NCBI GenBank assembly: GCA_019114755.1
Contig: DXEW01000033.1
Coordinates: forward strand, 1-42,718
Source of the DNA: Candidatus Borkfalkia faecavium
GTDB lineage: Bacteria; Bacillota; Clostridia; Christensenellales; Borkfalkiaceae
DNA: 42,718 bases
Reading direction: 5' to 3'
The notes under the pieces are model-generated. The model was not told where the DNA came from and ran no database searches. It saw nothing but the letters and a program-made list of their open reading frames with translations. Shown one piece after another: positions 1,070-27,228 of this stretch; the stretch's first letter is position 1; each line of letters begins with the position of its first letter. The position numbers and the translations under genes are program-made.

Positions 1070-1108
1070 GAGGCACGGCTTCCCTTTGGGAAGCCGTGCC
1101 TCTTTGTC
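1070..1108 (+). terminator. intrinsic terminator after the toxin gene
   Basis: A perfect 15-bp stem (1070-1084 with 1088-1102) closed by a TTT loop and followed by TTTGTCT. It lies 50 bases after the toxin stop. The possible GTG start of the next gene falls within the right arm. Confidence 0.75.
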
Positions 1109-3210
1109 TGCACACAGGGGCGCATAACAGGCGGGCAGTTGCGCAAACTGCCCTTGTGGAAAAGAAAGATCGGCCGGGGCAGCCGGCTTCAAACAGTCAA
1201 AATAAATATTCGGAAGAGCCGCCAAAAGAGGCGCAGGACGGGCAGCCGGCTTCAAACAAGCAAAATAAATATTTGGAAGAGCCGCCAAAAGAGGCGCAGG
1301 GCGGGCAGCCGGCGTCGGAACAAAAGACCGCGCAGGGCGCGTTCAAGAAGGCCGCCGCTCATAAGGAAAACGCCGATCAAGCAGCCGCCGATGGGCAGAC
1401 AACGGAGCGGGGCGGGGAACAGGAAAAGGGAATCGCCGCCGGCACGGCCGCCGCGGAGACTTCAAAAGAAAAAGCCGCCTGTGCCGCCGATGTGCAGGCA
1501 AAGGTCAAAGAGATCAAGCGGCTGCTGCCTGCGCCCGATATCCTCGTATACGAATTTTCGGCGGGGGACGGCACCCCTTGCGCGGCGGTGTATGCGGACG
1601 GCATCACCGACAAAGAGCTTATGGGCATGCTGGCGGCGCGGCCGCTCGCCGAGCGCCCCGCGCCCTGCTCGCGCGAGGAGGCAAAGCGCATGTTGCTCTT
1701 CCCCGAACTTCGCGAAGCGGACGAGGCTTCCGCCTGTTCGCGCGAAATTTTGGCGGGCAACCCCGCCCTCGTCATCGGCGGGGTGGAGGGGTATATCATC
1801 CTCGGCACCAAAAAGGTGGCGCTGCGGGCGGTCAGCGAGCCGCAGACTTCCATCGCCGTCAAGGGCCCGCGCGAGGGGTTCATCGAAGACATCAAGACGA
1901 ACATGGGCCTCATCCGCCGCCGCCTCAAGACGCCCGACCTGATGTTCGTGATGCTGGAAGCGGGGCGGCGCAGCGGCACGGCGGTGGCCATCGCCTACCT
2001 CAAAGGCATTGCCGACGAGCGGGTGGTGAAAAAGGCGGAAGAGCGCATCCGCGCCGCCGATATCGACGGCGTGCCCGACTCTTCCTATATCGCCAAATTC
2101 CTCGCCGAACGGCCTCGCTCGCTGTTCAAGCAGGCGGGCACCACCGAAAAGCCGGATATCCTCTGTGCCAAGATGCTGGAAGGGCGCATCGCCGTGCTGG
2201 TAGACGGCTCGCCCATCGTCCTCACCCTGCCGTATCTGCTGGCGGAAGACTTCCAGAGCGCGCAGGACTATTTCGTCTCCCCCTACCGCGCCACGGCCAG
2301 CCGCTGGCTGCGCATGGGGGCGGCGTGCACGGCCGTGTTCCTGCCCGCCTTTTATGTGGCGGCGGAGCTGTTCCGCCTGCGCCTGCTGCCCTTCGACCTA
2401 TTGATGACCGTCGCGGGCGGGGTGCGCAGCATCCCCCTCTCGCCGGGGCTGGAGCTGTTCTTTCTGCTGCTGGTGCTGGAAGTGCTCATCGAGGCGAGCG
2501 TGCGCATGCCCAAATACGTCGCCCTCGCCCTCTCCGTCATCGGGGCGCTGGTGCTGGGCGACACCGCCGTCAAGGCGGGGCTGGTCTCTTCGCCCGCCAT
2601 CATCATCGTGGCGCTTTCGGGCATCTCCGCCTACACCGTGCCCGACCTCACGGGCACCCTGTCGCTGGTGCGCCTCGCCTTCATCGTGGCGGCGGGCAGC
2701 ATCGGCACCTACGGCATCCTGCTGTTGGCGGCGCTCCTCGCGTATTATCTGGTCACGACGGACAGCTACGGCGTGCCTCTGCTCGCGCCCTTCTCGCCCC
2801 TCATCCGCAGCGACCTCAAAGATACGCTGTATAAGGCGGAACTGTTCTCCCTGTGGCATCGGCCGCGGGTGCTGCGGGGCAAAAACGAGCGCAGGCTGGC
2901 CTCTTTTGGGAAGGAAGGAGAAGAAATGGAGAGCGAGGTGGAGCAGGAAGAGACGAAGAGTTCCGCGGAGAGGGAAGAAATGAAAGGCGCCGCGACCGAA
3001 GAAGGGAAGGATATGCAAGAAGGGAAAGGCGGCTTTCAAAATAGGGAAAAGACGAAGAGTTCCGCGGAGAGGGAAGAAATGAAAGGCGCCACGCCCGAAG
3101 AAGGGAAGGATATACAAGAAGGGGAAGGCGGCCTTCAAAACAATAAACAGGCGGGCGGCACCTCGCAAAACAGAGAAGAGGCGGGCGGCCGCCCTTCTGA
3201 AACGCCATGA
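1096..3210 (+). CDS. gerAA: Spore germination protein, GerAA/GerKA family
   Basis: The A subunit of a GerA-type germinant receptor in the spore inner membrane. The family hallmark VKGPREGFIEDIKTN, followed by IRRRLKTPDL, is present. Several hydrophobic segments lie between about residues 410 and 600. At 704 residues it is about 200 longer than usual. The excess is low-complexity charged sequence at both ends: three 21-codon repeats at the N-terminus and two 33-codon repeats at the C-terminus. The start is uncertain. GTG 1096 lies in a terminator hairpin with no clear ribosome site, and GTG 1156 or a later codon is possible. gerAB follows 16 bases after the stop. The germinant is unknown. Confidence 0.88.
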   Translation: MPLCLHTGAHNRRAVAQTALVEKKDRPGQPASNSQNKYSEEPPKEAQDGQPASNKQNKYLEEPPKEAQGGQPASEQKTAQGAFKKAAAHKENADQAAADGQTTERGGEQEKGIAAGTAAAETSKEKAACAADVQAKVKEIKRLLPAPDILVYEFSAGDGTPCAAVYADGITDKELMGMLAARPLAERPAPCSREEAKRMLLFPELREADEASACSREILAGNPALVIGGVEGYIILGTKKVALRAVSEPQTSIAVKGPREGFIEDIKTNMGLIRRRLKTPDLMFVMLEAGRRSGTAVAIAYLKGIADERVVKKAEERIRAADIDGVPDSSYIAKFLAERPRSLFKQAGTTEKPDILCAKMLEGRIAVLVDGSPIVLTLPYLLAEDFQSAQDYFVSPYRATASRWLRMGAACTAVFLPAFYVAAELFRLRLLPFDLLMTVAGGVRSIPLSPGLELFFLLLVLEVLIEASVRMPKYVALALSVIGALVLGDTAVKAGLVSSPAIIIVALSGISAYTVPDLTGTLSLVRLAFIVAAGSIGTYGILLLAALLAYYLVTTDSYGVPLLAPFSPLIRSDLKDTLYKAELFSLWHRPRVLRGKNERRLASFGKEGEEMESEVEQEETKSSAEREEMKGAATEEGKDMQEGKGGFQNREKTKSSAEREEMKGATPEEGKDIQEGEGGLQNNKQAGGTSQNREEAGGRPSETP
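1177..1320 (+). repeat. 63-bp in-frame tandem repeat, gerAA 5' part
   Basis: Units start at 1177 and 1240, with a third partial unit at 1303, each beginning GGGCAGCCGGC. They encode GQPASN-QNKY-EEPPKEAQ, 21 codons per unit, so copy-number change keeps the frame. Confidence 0.85.
2952..3149 (+). repeat. 99-bp in-frame tandem repeat, gerAA 3' part
   Basis: Two units (2952-3050 and 3051-3149) both begin GACGAAGAGTTCCGCGGAG and encode a Lys/Glu-rich 33-residue repeat with the core SSAEREEMKGA. They extend the hydrophilic C-terminal tail. Confidence 0.85.
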
Positions 3211-3226
3211 AAGGGGAGGGAAGGAC

Positions 3227-4600
3227 ATGAACGACATCAAACTGCGGCAGCTGTGCTTTATCTTTGCCGCCATGCTGCCCGTCACCCGCATGATCGTGTA
3301 CCCCGCCACCCTCGCCTATCACGCCGGCAGCGACCTGCTGCTCTCCGCCGCCCTCAGCCTGGCGCTGGAAGGGCTGGTCGTGGGGCTGATGCTGTGGCTG
3401 GCGCGCCGCACGCGGAGCACTTTTTTCGGGCTGCTGGCAGAAAACTTCGGCGACGCCGCCGCGCGCATCGTCTACGGGCTGTTCGCCCTCTTTTTCGCCC
3501 TGTCGGCGCTGCTGCCGCTGCTCGAGCAGCGCGGCTTCGTCATGCAGGTGCTGTACGAGAACGTGCCGCCCCTCATCTGCTACGCGCCCTTTTTCGGCGT
3601 CTGCTTTTTCGCCTGCACCAAGGGCCTGCGCGCCGTCGGCCGCGTGGCAGACCTTTCGCTGCCGGTATTCGTTCTGTCGTATGCGGTCGTCATCCTGCTG
3701 GCGCTGCCGCAGGCAGACTTCGGGGCGCTGCTGCCCGTCGTCGAGAGCGGCGCACGGGTATGGCGGGGCTTTGCGGCGGGCCCGTGCTGGTACACCGCCT
3801 GCCTGTACCCCCTCTTTTTCCTCGGCCACGTCCGCTATGAGCGGCGCGCGGCCGCAAAAGTGCTGGGCGCGTATGTCGCCGGCGCCGCCGTCACGCTGCT
3901 GTTTTTGGCGGTGTTTTACGCCGTGTTTTCGGATATCTCCATCTTGCAGCACAACTCGCTGGCGCAGATCTCCAAATACGCCACCGCCTTTTCTTCGCTG
4001 GGCAGGGTAGATCTCCTGTTCATCTTTGCCCTCACCCTCGTGCTCGCCTTCGCCCTCTGCATCCCCGTGCAGCTTTCGGTGCACTGCGCCGCGCGGGCGC
4101 TCGGCTGCCGCCCCCTTCTCCCCGCCGCCGTCATCAACGCGGCGCTGCTGGCGCTGACCGTCTTTTTCAACACTTCCTTCCGAGAGGTACAGCAGTTCTG
4201 CACGCAGCGGCTGTGGTTCGTGTACGCCGCCTTTGCCTATCTCGTGCCTGTTTTGGCTCTGTTTTTGAAGCGGGAACGGCCGCCGCACGGCGGGGGAAGC
4301 GCTTCTCATTTGTTGAAGAGGGAAAGTCCGCCGCAGGGAGCAGGCAGAAGGCCGCCGCTTTTTTCTATATTCAAAAAGAAGGAATCACATGCACCGTGCA
4401 GGGGGAAACGGCATGGCAGAAGGGCGCCGCTCCTTTCAATATTCAAAAGGAAGGAAGCGCATAAGCCGCAGAGGGGGAGAAGACATGGCAGAAGGGCGCC
4501 GTTCCTTTCTATATTCAAAAAAAAGGAAGCGCATGCGCCGCAGCGGGGGCGGGGCAGGACAGAGAAGCGCGCCCGCGGCAGGGGGAGACGGCATGGATAG
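3227..4600 (+). CDS. gerAB: Spore germination permease, GerAB family
   Basis: The B subunit of a GerA-type receptor, related to amino-acid permeases and thought to bind the germinant. About ten hydrophobic segments span residues 5-345. The start is ATG 3227 after AGGGAAGG. The core ends near residue 347, about the usual family length. A further 110 residues form a very basic tail with three 24-residue repeats of the type RRAPLLSIFKRKEAHKPQRG. The tail is encoded by a 72-bp tandem repeat that also contains possible gerAC starts in another frame. The stop overlaps the likely gerAC start (ATGGATAG), indicating translational coupling. The tail may be translated by-product of DNA repeat growth. 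Confidence 0.87.
   Translation: MNDIKLRQLCFIFAAMLPVTRMIVYPATLAYHAGSDLLLSAALSLALEGLVVGLMLWLARRTRSTFFGLLAENFGDAAARIVYGLFALFFALSALLPLLEQRGFVMQVLYENVPPLICYAPFFGVCFFACTKGLRAVGRVADLSLPVFVLSYAVVILLALPQADFGALLPVVESGARVWRGFAAGPCWYTACLYPLFFLGHVRYERRAAAKVLGAYVAGAAVTLLFLAVFYAVFSDISILQHNSLAQISKYATAFSSLGRVDLLFIFALTLVLAFALCIPVQLSVHCAARALGCRPLLPAAVINAALLALTVFFNTSFREVQQFCTQRLWFVYAAFAYLVPVLALFLKRERPPHGGGSASHLLKRESPPQGAGRRPPLFSIFKKKESHAPCRGKRHGRRAPLLSIFKRKEAHKPQRGRRHGRRAPFLSIFKKKEAHAPQRGRGRTEKRARGRGRRHG
4343..4558 (+). repeat. 72-bp tandem repeat at the gerAB-gerAC junction
   Basis: Three units start at 4343, 4415 and 4487, each beginning GGCAGAAGG and containing an ATATTCAAAA core. The period is 24 codons. 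Units two and three are preceded by a purine-rich stretch and ATG (4413 and 4485) in the gerAC frame, so the unit carries a ribosome-site-plus-start cassette while adding residues to GerAB. Confidence 0.85.
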
Positions 4601-6817: not shown

Positions 6818-7095
6818 CCCGCTTTGCGCGCGTATGTTTTGCGCGGCGGCGGGGCGCATATGTTTCTCGCGGCGGCGTTTGAACGCAGGCGGCGCGTGTT
6901 CCCGCAGGGGCGGGCGCACGGGGCGGCATGCCTGCCGCCGGGCGGAAAGGCGCAAGGGCGCGGGGCGTTCCCGCGGCGCTTTTGGCAAAGGCCGCTGCAA
7001 TGCCGGTCGATCGCTCGGGGCGCGGGCCTTGGCGGCCTGCACCCGATCATTCTTTTTGTTTTTGTTCATTTTTCCCCCTTTTTTAGTTTTTGCCG
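6818..7095. other. GC-rich region with no supported gene
   Basis: This stretch contains repeated GCGGCGG motifs (6838-6900) and ends in a T-rich run (7050-7095). A minus-strand frame starting at 7069 has a purine-rich upstream stretch and begins MNKNKKNDRVQAAK. It soon becomes Arg/Pro-rich and runs back through the RNA candidate, so it is not called. Confidence 0.5.
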
Positions 7096-7135
7096 CACGG
7101 GCGGCGCCTTATATGATAGGCGCCGCCCGTGTTTT
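7096..7135 (+). terminator. strong intrinsic terminator
   Basis: A perfect 14-bp GC-rich stem (7096-7109 with 7118-7131), an 8-base loop and then TTTTGCT. It would stop any read-through from the 6243 promoter and lies immediately before hairpin element copy A. Confidence 0.8.
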
Positions 7136-7139
7136 GCTA

Positions 7140-7378
7140 TTCACAAATTTTGTTTCAAGCTGATGAAACAAAATTTCGTGATTTGAAAGACAACCCGACG
7201 TTCGCCGCCTGAAGGCGGTTCTGCGTCTGGTTTTCTCTCGGCTGCGCGCTTTTGAGGGCACGCTTATTATAAGACGCGCGCAGCCTTCACTCTTTCCGCA
7301 AAAGCCGCAGGTATGCGGCAAATGGGGTGCGCTTACCGAAAGGCGTGGCTTTCGGACGCGCAGTAATGATTCATGTAG
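7140..7378 (+). repeat. hairpin repeat element, copy A
   Basis: The element has an ordered skeleton. TTCAC opens stem 1 (AAATTTTGTTTCA with its complement) and CGTGA closes it. GACAACCC and GGTTTTCTC then flank an inner hairpin (CGCCGCC/GGCGG). Stem 3 (7239-7285) has a long loop containing GAGGGCACG and TTATAA, followed by a second TTCAC (7286-7290), CTTTCC and a last hairpin pair. Copies B (18654) and C (7408) share the skeleton but differ in stem sequence with complementary changes on both arms. Confidence 0.7.
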
Positions 7379-7407
7379 TTCTCACGATTTGTTTTGAGCC
7401 GACGCTG

Positions 7408-7640
7408 TTCACGAAAATTCTTTTGAGCTGACAAAAGAATTTTCCGTGAGGAAGGGGGAACCCTGCCGTGCGTTGCCGCGCAAAATTGCGCGGCATACTG
7501 GCGGCGGTTTCTCCCCTCTTTTTTTGCCGTTTAGGGGCTCACGTTTTATAAACGGCAAAAAAATTCACCTCCATCCGTATGCTCATAAGGGAAAAGAGGC
7601 AAAAGCGTCGTTTTGCCTCTTTTTCGTATTTGTTTTCAGA
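7408..7640 (+). repeat. hairpin repeat element, copy C
   Basis: This has the same skeleton as copy A, only 30 bases further on. TTCAC is at 7408 and stem 1 pairs GAAAATTCTTTT with AAAAGAATTTTC. Stem 3 pairs TTTTTTGCCGTTT with AAACGGCAAAAAA around the loop AGGGGCTCACGTTTTATAA, followed by TTCAC (about 7563-7568). The final hairpin AGAGGCAAAA/TTTTGCCTCT also recurs near 24637. Confidence 0.7.
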
Positions 7641-7690
7641 GATCCTTCGATGCGCGCGGCTGCACCGCGCTTACTCAGGATGACAGGAAA
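7638..7690. repeat. GATCCTTCG...CAGGATGACA dispersed repeat
   Basis: Conserved ends AGATCCTTCG and CTCAGGATGACAGG surround a variable GC-rich palindromic centre. Other copies are at 241-276, 18971-19023 (inverted) and 37745-37781. Similar short repeats are common between genes in gut bacteria. Confidence 0.75.
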
Positions 7691-7760: not shown

Positions 7761-7849
7761 GTATAAATGTAAAAAGTAAAGTGTAGAATTGAAGAAGTAT
7801 TAAAAAATATTTTTCATTTCCTCAATTTTACATTCTACATTTATCATTT
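7761..7849. repeat. AT-rich heptad inverted repeat
   Basis: The left arm (about 7762-7793) has ATGTAAA/GTGTAGA-type 7-base words, and the right arm (about 7823-7849) carries their complement (TTTTACATTCTACATTTA). An AT-rich centre separates the arms. Related copies lie at 19032-19081, 24689-24735 and 27057-27167. Confidence 0.65.
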
Positions 7850-7855
7850 GCTTTG

Positions 7856-8090
7856 CGCCCCGCGCAGCGCGTTACGCTGCCCTTTTCCCCTCTTCCGTCA
7901 CTTCGTGACACCTTCCCCCCGAGGGGAAGGCAAGGGTGGGGGAGCGGACGTCTCAAACCGCCCCTTTACAAGGGGCCCGAAAGGGAGCCCCGCGCCGCCG
8001 CGCTACGCTGCCCTTTTCCCCTCTTTCGTCACTTCGTGACACCTTCCCCCTGGGGGGGGGGAAGGCAAGGGTGGGGGAGCGGGCGCCTTA
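7856..8090. repeat. tandem pair of GC-rich CTTCCCC repeats
   Basis: Two copies of about 90 bases (7861-7950 and 8000-8090) share TACGCTGCCCTTTTCCCC, GTCACTTCGTGACACCTTCC and GGAAGGCAAGGGTGGGGGAG. Each contains a TCACTTCGTGA palindrome. They lie directly downstream of the spoIIE stop, so they are in its 3' region. Confidence 0.75.
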
Positions 8091-17265: not shown

Positions 17266-18648
<1,383 letters not shown>

Positions 18649-18653
18649 GGGAG

Positions 18654-18880
18654 TTCACAAAAACCTCGCCGCGACGGCGGCTGCGGTTTTTCGTGATTTG
18701 AGGACAACCCCGCTGTCCGCGCTTTTAGCGCGGCGCAGCCGGAGTTTTCCTCGGCGGCGCGCTTTTAGGGGCTCACGTTTGATAAACGCGCGCCGCCTTC
18801 ACCTTTCCTGCATGTAGCTCCCCGCTGTAAAGTGAAAAAGCAAAAAGCGCGGTTTTTGCTTTTTCGAGCATTATTTGGAA
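18654..18880 (+). repeat. hairpin repeat element, copy B
   Basis: TTCAC at 18654 opens stem 1 (AAAAACC with GGTTTTT) and CGTGA closes it. GAGGACAAC pairs with GTTTTCCTC around an inner CCGCGC/GCGCGG hairpin. Stem 3 pairs GGCGGCGCG with CGCGCCGCC around the loop AGGGGCTCACGTTTGATAA (18753-18797). TTCAC recurs at 18798-18802. A last hairpin (18833-18865) pairs GAAAAAGCAAAAA with its complement. Confidence 0.7.
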
Positions 18881-19031: not shown

Positions 19032-19081
19032 TTCATCCAAAATTTTACATTTTACATTCTACATTTACCATTTACCATTTC
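19032..19081. repeat. AT-rich heptad repeat, single arm
   Basis: Seven-base words of the type TTTTACA and TTCTACA continue into TTTACCA words. It matches one arm of the elements at 7761 and 27057 and lies upstream of plsX. Confidence 0.6.
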
Positions 19082-19166
19082 CCCGCGCGCGCATAAAAAG
19101 AGGCACGCTGCGCAGCGGGCGCGCAAACATGCGGCAAAGCGAACATCAAAAAAGGAGTATTTGTCT

Positions 19167-24539: not shown

Positions 24540-24685
24540 CACGATCTGCACCACTCTCCACGGTTTTTGGCAGAAGGGGCAAACCTTTATTAAAATCGCG
24601 GCGCATTCACCCTCATCCGTATGCCCATAAGGGAAACGAGGCAAAAGCGTCGTTTTGCCTCGTTTTGAGTATTTATTTTTAAGCA
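24540..24685 (+). repeat. diverged hairpin repeat element, copy D
   Basis: The 3' half resembles copy C. GAAGGGGCAAACCTTTATTAAA corresponds to the conserved stem-3 loop. It is followed by ATTCACC, CATCCGTATG, CATAAGGGAAA and a CGAGGCAAAA/TTTTGCCTCG hairpin (24637-24662). The 5' half cannot be aligned by eye. It fills most of the smc-ftsY gap. Confidence 0.55.
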
Positions 24686-24688
24686 TCC

Positions 24689-24735
24689 AAAATTTTACAT
24701 TCTACATTTTACATTTTACATTCTACATTTTCGCG
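24689..24735. repeat. AT-rich heptad repeat upstream of ftsY
   Basis: A series of TTTTACA/TTCTACA seven-base words, the same as one arm of the elements at 7761 and 27057. It ends about 45 bases before ftsY and may supply A/T-rich upstream sequence. Confidence 0.6.
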
Positions 24736-24778
24736 CGGCGCAGCGCATTTTCAATTCAAAAACAAGGAGGCCATGCAA

Positions 24779-27059: not shown

Positions 27060-27167
27060 AATGTAAAATGTAGAATGTAGAATATAGAATTTTGGAATAG
27101 GCATAAAATATTTTTTAATTTATCGATAATTTTACATTTTACATTTATCATTTTACATTTTCATCCA
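27057..27167. repeat. AT-rich heptad inverted repeat between ylxM and ffh
   Basis: The left arm (about 27060-27090) has ATGTAAA/ATGTAGA words and the right arm (about 27131-27162) has TTTTACA words; the centre is AT-rich. It begins at the ylxM stop codon, so the stop itself may be supplied by the repeat. Confidence 0.65.
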
Positions 27168-27228
27168 CCGTGGATGCGGCGCGGCGCCGCCGCGGCGGCG
27201 AGATCGAAACAGGAACAAGGAGTAAACT

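Follow-up and report, generated by a model that had tools for sequence, protein, structure and literature searches.

A multi-hairpin interspersed repeat with conserved shape and variable stems in Candidatus Borkfalkia faecavium and related genomes

Results

Element Copies in the Window

The window, the whole 42,718-nt stretch of the Candidatus Borkfalkia faecavium genome that was analysed (contig DXEW01000033.1), contains three copies of a structured repeat, named A, C and B, and a fourth, truncated piece, fragment D (Table 1). The initial annotation had reported the three copies from the letters alone, and all of them were recovered at its coordinates with the motif order it described. In order, the element consists of a first hairpin with a bulge, a second stem containing AACC/GGTT, a third stem whose bulge is asymmetric and of GGGGCTCACG type, the motif TTCAC and a hairpin-ended tail, with core and tail together spanning roughly 210-280 nt. 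In copies A, B and C, stem 1 has TTCAC...CGTGA ends, one bulged base four pairs from its base and an apical loop that is frequently AGCTGA. Stem 2 contains AACC/GGTT, with a bulged A present in copy B, and stem 3 combines an asymmetric 5' bulge (TTTAGGGGCTCACG or similar) with a small TATAA hairpin, followed by TTCAC. In copy A the stem-3 bulge is GAGGGCACGC and not AGGGGCTCACG, a small correction to the initial annotation. When folded as single-strand DNA and compared to shuffled sequences, the copies gave z scores of -6.4 for A, -9.5 for C and -6.9 for B, and none of the 200 shuffles made per copy folded as well. The genes asnS, argS and plsX (downstream of copy B) were named by NCBIfam models above their cut-offs.

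Table 1. Positions of the element copies, their parts and the asnS gene in the window.
Feature	Position	Strand	Evidence and remarks
Copy A core: stem 1 (7141-7181), stem 2, stem 3, TTCAC	7140..7294	+	covariance-model match, E 2.1e-36
Copy A tail, type II: hairpin GCCGCAGGTATGCGGC, then GTGCGC...CCGAAAG-GCGTGG-CTTTCGG...GCGC	7295..7367, end approximate	+	
Orphan stem-1 5' arm and loop, immediately 5' of copy C	7379..7407	+	
Copy C core	7408..7572	+	covariance-model match, E 2.9e-39
Copy C tail, type I, terminator-like hairpin 7590-7625	7573..7635, end approximate	+	
asnS (asparagine--tRNA ligase), gene 5' of copy B	17266..18648	+	TIGR00457, 605.7 bits, cut-off 342.6
Copy B core	18654..18806	+	covariance-model match, E 7.3e-37; starts 5 nt past the asnS stop codon
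Copy B tail, type III, terminator-like hairpin 18833-18866	18807..18876, end approximate	+	
Fragment D: stem 3 (3' side), TTCACC and a type I tail; lacks the 5' part	about 24586..24666	+	

The tail after TTCAC occurs in three types, each ending in a hairpin. In most copies with a recognised tail the loop of this hairpin is GCGTGG, GTGTGA, GCGTCG or GCGCGG, although recognition itself required CG or TG in the loop and the count is therefore not independent proof of loop conservation. A stem of at least 9 bp together with TTTTT was found in 30 of the 59 recognisable tails, the other 29 having no strong terminator under this rule. By a consensus scan, copies C and B both have the hairpin and T run of an intrinsic terminator (3 and 5 sites in their regions, respectively, compared to 2.0 and 1.4 expected by chance), and the tail of copy A is without a T run. 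A kissing interaction of the stem-3 bulge (CACG) with the tail loop (GCGTGG/GTGTGA) was considered and rejected, as the loop types were not associated when compared by eye.

Other repeats were also observed. Intergenic TTTTACATTCTACATT-like tracts, some of them 5' of genes, lie at window positions 7810-7863, 19034-19087, 24684-24751 and 27121-27174. Promoter-like TTTACA-16-TACCAT matches fall at 19044-19078 within one such tract, and a similar tract is present in locus L129. A second small element with the ends AACCAAGCCAAAGCAA and TTGCTTTGGCTTGGTT occurs in or beside copies, replacing stem 1 or the tail (locus L002, in the region of G000:C20:26788; G000:C1:16501; G000:C26:31195). Some copies (G000:C6:15839; L121 at about 3030-3330) carry within stem 3 a hairpin repeat, TTCCCAAAAATCTCGC...GCGATTTTCGGGAGCCCTG, which when alone also matches the covariance model weakly. 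Tandem repeats of 63, 99 and 72 nt, all multiples of three, were found at window positions 1177-1302, 2946-3143 and 4343-4558, in the region of the open frames 1096-3210 and 3227-4600. At 7868-8057 a 59-nt repeat is present in two copies 131 nt apart and contains the palindrome GTCACTTCGTGAC.

Copy Number and Distribution

The initial annotation had staked its reading on the existence of further copies, and these were abundant. A covariance model built from 11 copies (R1) gave at least 91 matches at E ≤ 0.01 and at least 97 at E ≤ 10 in the 1.73-Mb genome, both lower bounds since 150 of 1580 first-look candidates were scored. Seven of the 91 matches (within ranks 80-90) start with TTCCC and resemble a different hairpin repeat. 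A core of at least 120 nt, hereafter near-complete, was present in 75 of the 91, none of which belongs to the TTCCC-type repeat. A pattern of the stem-3 bulge, with up to 3 mismatches, matched 11 times in the genome compared to 0 for the reversed pattern. Tandem placement was common, with 16 of the 75 near-complete copies lying ≤350 nt behind another same-strand match, as in a run on contig C11 (matches at 641, 923, 1205 and 1486). Orphan stem-1 5' arms, broken at the loop, stand directly 5' of copies at eight places before the 91 matches, the one at window positions 7379-7407 included.

A search of 61 genomes detected the element in 35 of the 37 genomes of the genus, own genome included, and in 1 of 24 genomes outside it; the covariance model found no match in two genus genomes (G001 and G004). 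The genus total was at least 1045 matches in the 37 genomes, with up to 49 candidates scored per genome and this number reached in eight of them. Across the order, 10 of 297 genomes matched at E ≤ 1e-5 (10 candidates scored per genome): two in the genus, five in the sister genus g26, one in a third genus within the family, and two (G068, eight matches; G041, one match) in other families. Across the class, 2 of 391 genomes matched a broader model (R2) at E ≤ 1e-6 (7 candidates scored per genome), both from the own family. The distribution seen is thus one bacterial family, with sporadic occurrence elsewhere in its order. The five sister-genus copies examined keep stem 1 with TTCAC/CGTGA-type ends, mostly have a shorter stem 2, carry the stem-3 bulge in 4 of 5 cases and have TTCAC or TTCCC before the tail. 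The G068 copy aligned more poorly and was without the TTCAC start. A locus from another family of the order (L301) holds tandem copies at 1282-1416 and 1501-1632 with a 219-nt period, and its stem 2 retains GAAAGACAAACC...GGTTTTTCTCTC and TTCACTCTTTTCCGC, near the sequence in the own genome.

Rfam 15 gave 0 matches in the window at the gathering score, and a permissive scan of 7100-7650 returned 14 sub-threshold matches, the best (E 0.016) to a microRNA model. A limited literature search, which does not by itself establish absence from print, met no description of such an element.

Covariation and Stem Turnover

The arms of the further copies covary, as the initial annotation had predicted. 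In 75 distinct rows from the own genome, derived from 81 matches at E ≤ 1e-10 with some places given in two or three loci, 93.9% of cells were paired compared to a mean of 68.5% in column shuffles, and both sides had changed at 37 of 42 pairs. The covariation score of 0.629 exceeded the 0.209 of shuffles and the maximum of 0.152 obtained when partners were slid. Similar values were obtained for relatives (80 distinct rows; 93.2% paired; 39 of 42 pairs changed on both sides; score 0.631) and for mixed genera (98 rows; 93.5%; 39 of 42; 0.647), all counts leaning towards the structure because the alignments were fitted to the model. The number of distinct gap-free stem-1 forms was 25 in the own rows (A3) and 52 in alignment A4, and whole stems were common to several own copies. 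Many seemingly independent pairs are therefore inherited blocks; the own copies draw on a limited set of stem forms, so that independent events are fewer than cells.

The initial annotation had taken covariation across copies in one genome as an argument for selection on folded RNA or single-stranded DNA. Its premise stands, in that shape is kept while sequence changes, both within the genome and across genera; the conclusion does not follow from covariation alone, since covariation within the genome is inflated by inherited blocks and template switching from arm to arm yields compensatory changes in one step (PMC8794818). Such switching has been described for RNA hairpins, giving compensated changes without intermediates (PMC8794818). 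More telling is the single-base bulge of stem 1, which was kept in 70 of the 71 well-paired stems (≥11 of 13 checked positions paired; 75 copies examined) though flanking pairs change on both sides of it. In the remaining four copies, stem 1 had arms from different forms (two) or had been replaced (two). The survival of the bulge argues for selection on shape. Template switching alone should erase the bulge, yet it remains, and we infer that shape selection combined with block exchange is the best fit.

The 5' TTCAC covaries with its partner, TCAC/GTGA being exchanged for TCTC/GAGA, TCGC/GCGA or TCGG/CCGA, and was accordingly rejected as a fixed cleavage site.

Pairing in the element was nearly pure Watson-Crick. 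Among pairs showing two or more Watson-Crick types, the share of G-U in the standard cells was 22 of 2165 for own copies and 57 of 2618 for relatives, compared to 53 of 850 for RNase P RNAs from 30 genus genomes. The ratio of G-U to A-C cells at well-paired positions was 24:16 in own copies and 23:26 in relatives (pooled 47:42) compared to 38:9 in RNase P; as distinct events the ratios were 20:9, 15:15 and 23:6, respectively. These counts come from model-fitted, non-independent cells, with pairs below 85% Watson-Crick dropped. The pooled difference from RNase P (Fisher) reached P = 0.0015 on the non-independent cells and P = 0.09 on events, so the weaker G-U preference of the element is suggestive, not firm. 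Selection on one RNA strand alone would be expected to produce a G-U preference like that of RNase P. Stem-1 forms one pair position apart, changing from Watson-Crick to Watson-Crick, made up 6 of 11 in the own genome and 14 of 22 in relatives; the same one-step measure in RNase P helices gave 2 of 5, 10 of 14 and 16 of 30. By this measure the element is not clearly unlike RNase P, which counts against arm-templated renewal.

Placement Behind Genes

Almost half of the near-complete copies (36 of 75) start ≤60 nt 3' of a same-strand stop codon, 28 of them at 0-9 nt. Selection may be one reason for the 0-9 nt peak, as tight junctions leave free only a few bases between the stop and the next ribosome-binding site. 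In 4 of the 75 an opposite-strand frame ends ≤60 nt from the tail hairpin, three of these being counted in both groups. The counts used open frames of at least 150 codons in place of called genes, and for copies without a recognised tail hairpin the tail was taken to end 70 nt past the core. The resulting sense bias of 36:4 is strong against 50:50 (P = 2e-7) and compatible with an 80:20 gene-strand bias (P = 0.16). Of the other 39 near-complete copies, 16 follow another copy within 350 nt and 23 are without either explanation. Under looser, earlier rules applied to all 91 matches, a same-strand frame ended no more than 400 nt away in 74, and 55 faced an opposite-strand frame. No conserved promoter belonging to the element was noticed by eye in the 5' flanks inspected; the sole promoter-like match upstream of copies in the window (7090-7117) sits inside another hairpin.

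These observations do not separate RNA from DNA as the form in which the element acts: sense orientation behind genes favours RNA, whereas the slight preference for G-U speaks against selection on a single RNA strand.

Orthologous Sites

Two sites were followed among relatives. The site behind asnS was occupied in 21 of 30 genomes (of 36 with an asnS match) and empty in nine; 20 of the 21 copies were called by model and eye, two of them truncated at contig ends, and the last, an incomplete copy in L132, by eye. The site behind argS was occupied in 9 of 30 genomes (of 38 with an argS match), and about 17 of the 21 empty argS sites were tight junctions by eye, the next start codon lying no more than about 75 nt away. 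In record CALVMR010000018.1 the element match begins 9 nt past the end of the AsnS match. Empty versions of insertion sites, which the initial annotation had proposed to look for, thus exist, but they neither date nor polarise insertion at base resolution. Occupied and empty argS and asnS sites were also compared by eye for a target-site duplication, and the spacers were too short and diverged to call one.

On a species tree from AsnS and ArgS, presence behind argS was clustered (5 changes; 2 of 300 shuffles as low). Presence behind asnS was not, with 9 changes (8 in a first count), the maximum for nine absences, and 300 of 300 shuffles as low, so that recurrent insertion and scattered loss are not separable at asnS. 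Stem sequences often differed between orthologous sites: the sister species G015 and G018 have nearly identical stems 1 and 2 behind asnS and different ones behind argS. Compared to the own asnS copy, 27 of 74 paralogues were closer than the best of 17 orthologues, and compared to the own argS copy, 22 of 74 paralogues were closer than the best of 8. Median identity was 0.64 for paralogues and 0.61 (asnS) and 0.55 (argS) for orthologues. The stem differences at orthologous sites are either concerted evolution or replacement in place, and the data fit both.

Candidate Partner Enzymes

Two enzyme families were searched for, Y1 transposase (PF01797) and reverse transcriptase (PF00078, RVT_1). The own genome, a 90%-complete metagenome-assembled genome in which absence is thus not final, gave 0 matches to either. 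Among 40 genus genomes Y1 was above cut-off in 22 and RVT_1 was found in 4. Y1 was rejected as a partner, being undetected in the own genome and not tracking element copy number, with 5 and 3 matches in the element-free G001 and G004; reverse transcriptase was likewise rejected for want of a match in the own genome. The element has the high copy number and small size of a classical MITE. No terminal inverted repeats were noticed by eye in the copies read, and the 3' end of the element is not sharply defined.

Discussion

Any explanation has to accommodate the copy number, the shape and its covariation, the position and sense bias, the occupied and empty orthologous sites, the mosaicism and the many paralogues that are closer than orthologues. 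We give an about even chance to the reading that the element is a MITE-like 3'-UTR or terminator module that is conserved for its shape and whose stems are renewed as copies exchange sequence. From its position and orientation, the element would probably be transcribed in sense as the 3' end of the mRNA of the preceding gene, with the terminator hairpin in its own tail closing the transcript, and the module would end or protect the transcript upstream. Selection would hold the three-hairpin shape, namely the stem-1 bulge and loop, AACC/GGTT, the asymmetric stem-3 bulge and TTCAC, and would leave the stem letters nearly free. As the mosaics of stem and tail types suggest, these letters would turn over by block exchange between copies, probably also by arm-templated correction and perhaps by template switching. 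The element would in addition colonise new sites.

A dedicated structured RNA, either a cis-regulator or a 3'-UTR-derived sRNA read by a protein via the bulge and loops, would make the copies a regulon and their mobility secondary. Its unpaired features are conserved across genera while the stems are nearly free, the orientation is sense, the asnS site is occupied in most genomes followed, and both upstream genes followed, an analyst-chosen pair, encode aminoacyl-tRNA synthetases. However, occupancy is patchy at a given gene (argS), G-U is hardly commoner than A-C, unlike in RNase P, and tandem copies and orphan arms resemble repeat dynamics. We consider this explanation unlikely, though worth keeping in view.

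A non-autonomous IS200/IS605-type element, with single-stranded DNA hairpins read by a Y1 transposase and TTCAC as the cleavage or target site, would agree with the bulged hairpins, with TTCAC flanking the core on both sides, with the lack of a noticed terminal inverted repeat and with near Watson-Crick-only stems, which suit DNA hairpins. It is already weakened by the distribution of Y1, missing from the 90%-complete own genome and present in both element-free genomes, and by a 5' TTCAC that varies with its partner and hence offers no fixed cleavage sequence; we regard it as improbable.

Palindrome correction alone, in which template switching keeps the arms complementary and shape is not selected, is a published mechanism (PMC8794818, PMC7202029). 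It would explain why two-sided changes are so much more frequent than one-sided ones (106 compared to 6 cells; 793 compared to 48 in the 75-row own alignment). It would not predict a stem-1 bulge that persists while the pairs outside it covary, nor loops and a stem-3 bulge that recur across genera. Loop inversion, taken as a mark of inter-strand template switching, was found in 1 of 13 distinct in-context hairpins (37 further hairpins were not placeable) and was rejected as such a mark. As a complete account, palindrome correction has a small chance of being right.

Integron-like sites, structure-read hairpins behind genes that mark mobile cassettes, share with the element shape over sequence, an extrahelical base, a position behind the gene and, for attC, recognition by structure (PMC2727003), but three hairpins in place of one and two followed genes that are housekeeping make this reading very improbable. 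A non-autonomous retroelement spread by reverse transcriptase would suit the sense orientation in probably transcribed regions and the 5'-truncated fragment D, but with RVT_1 as rare as it is in the genus and unmatched in the own genome, it is scarcely to be expected.

Beyond the module as preferred above, we tentatively raise a new kind of host or selfish factor that reads only shape (bulge, loops and spacing) behind stop codons, acting on the transcript or on single-stranded DNA, and that spreads or maintains the module without a known transposase or reverse transcriptase; this is possible, and we would sooner expect it to prove wrong. If it were true, the hairpins would form a large natural set in which arm-templated renewal and shape selection act together and can be measured. 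How long hairpins hold perfect pairing as their letters change is an old question, and the many matches in one genus (at least 1045), which occupy both orthologous and paralogous sites, could allow block exchange to be distinguished from template switching and from compensatory selection. The case also shows that the current RNA library can lack an abundant structured element found in most species of a genus, and that standard folded parts with terminator-like ends can interrupt gene junctions in these bacteria.

Several known systems resemble the element. Non-autonomous derivatives of IS200/IS605 have subterminal hairpins and do not need terminal inverted repeats, a likeness to the element, but their hairpin sequences are conserved, unlike those described here, and no Y1 enzyme was detected in the own genome. 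The attC sites of integrons stand behind the gene, as does the element, but attC is a single hairpin, integrase-dependent and associated with cassettes. attC is read by its folded structure, with extrahelical bases (PMC2727003), as the element may be. The pneumococcal BOX and SPRITE repeats are likewise small, interspersed in a genome of ~2 Mb and predicted to form stem-loops, BOX being modular and SPRITE terminator-like (PMC3049150). They were defined by sequence HMMs (PMC3049150), whereas the element here pairs with little stem sequence in common. ERIC, NEMIS/Correia, CIR and other bacterial MITE-like repeats measure about 100-200 bp and give highly paired transcripts; among them, ERIC is co-transcribed and changes the stability of upstream mRNA according to its orientation, and CIR consists of two arms and a linker (PMC2229807). 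All but CIR are described as a single stem-loop made from paired ends (PMC2229807), in contrast to the three hairpins plus a tail hairpin, conserved in shape only, of the element here. In size, number and place the anatomy of the element is that of a small interspersed repeat such as BOX, ERIC or CIR, and its terminator-like tail recalls SPRITE (PMC3049150, PMC2229807); it differs from BOX, ERIC and CIR in its low stem identity with the shape kept and in its sense placement behind stop codons.
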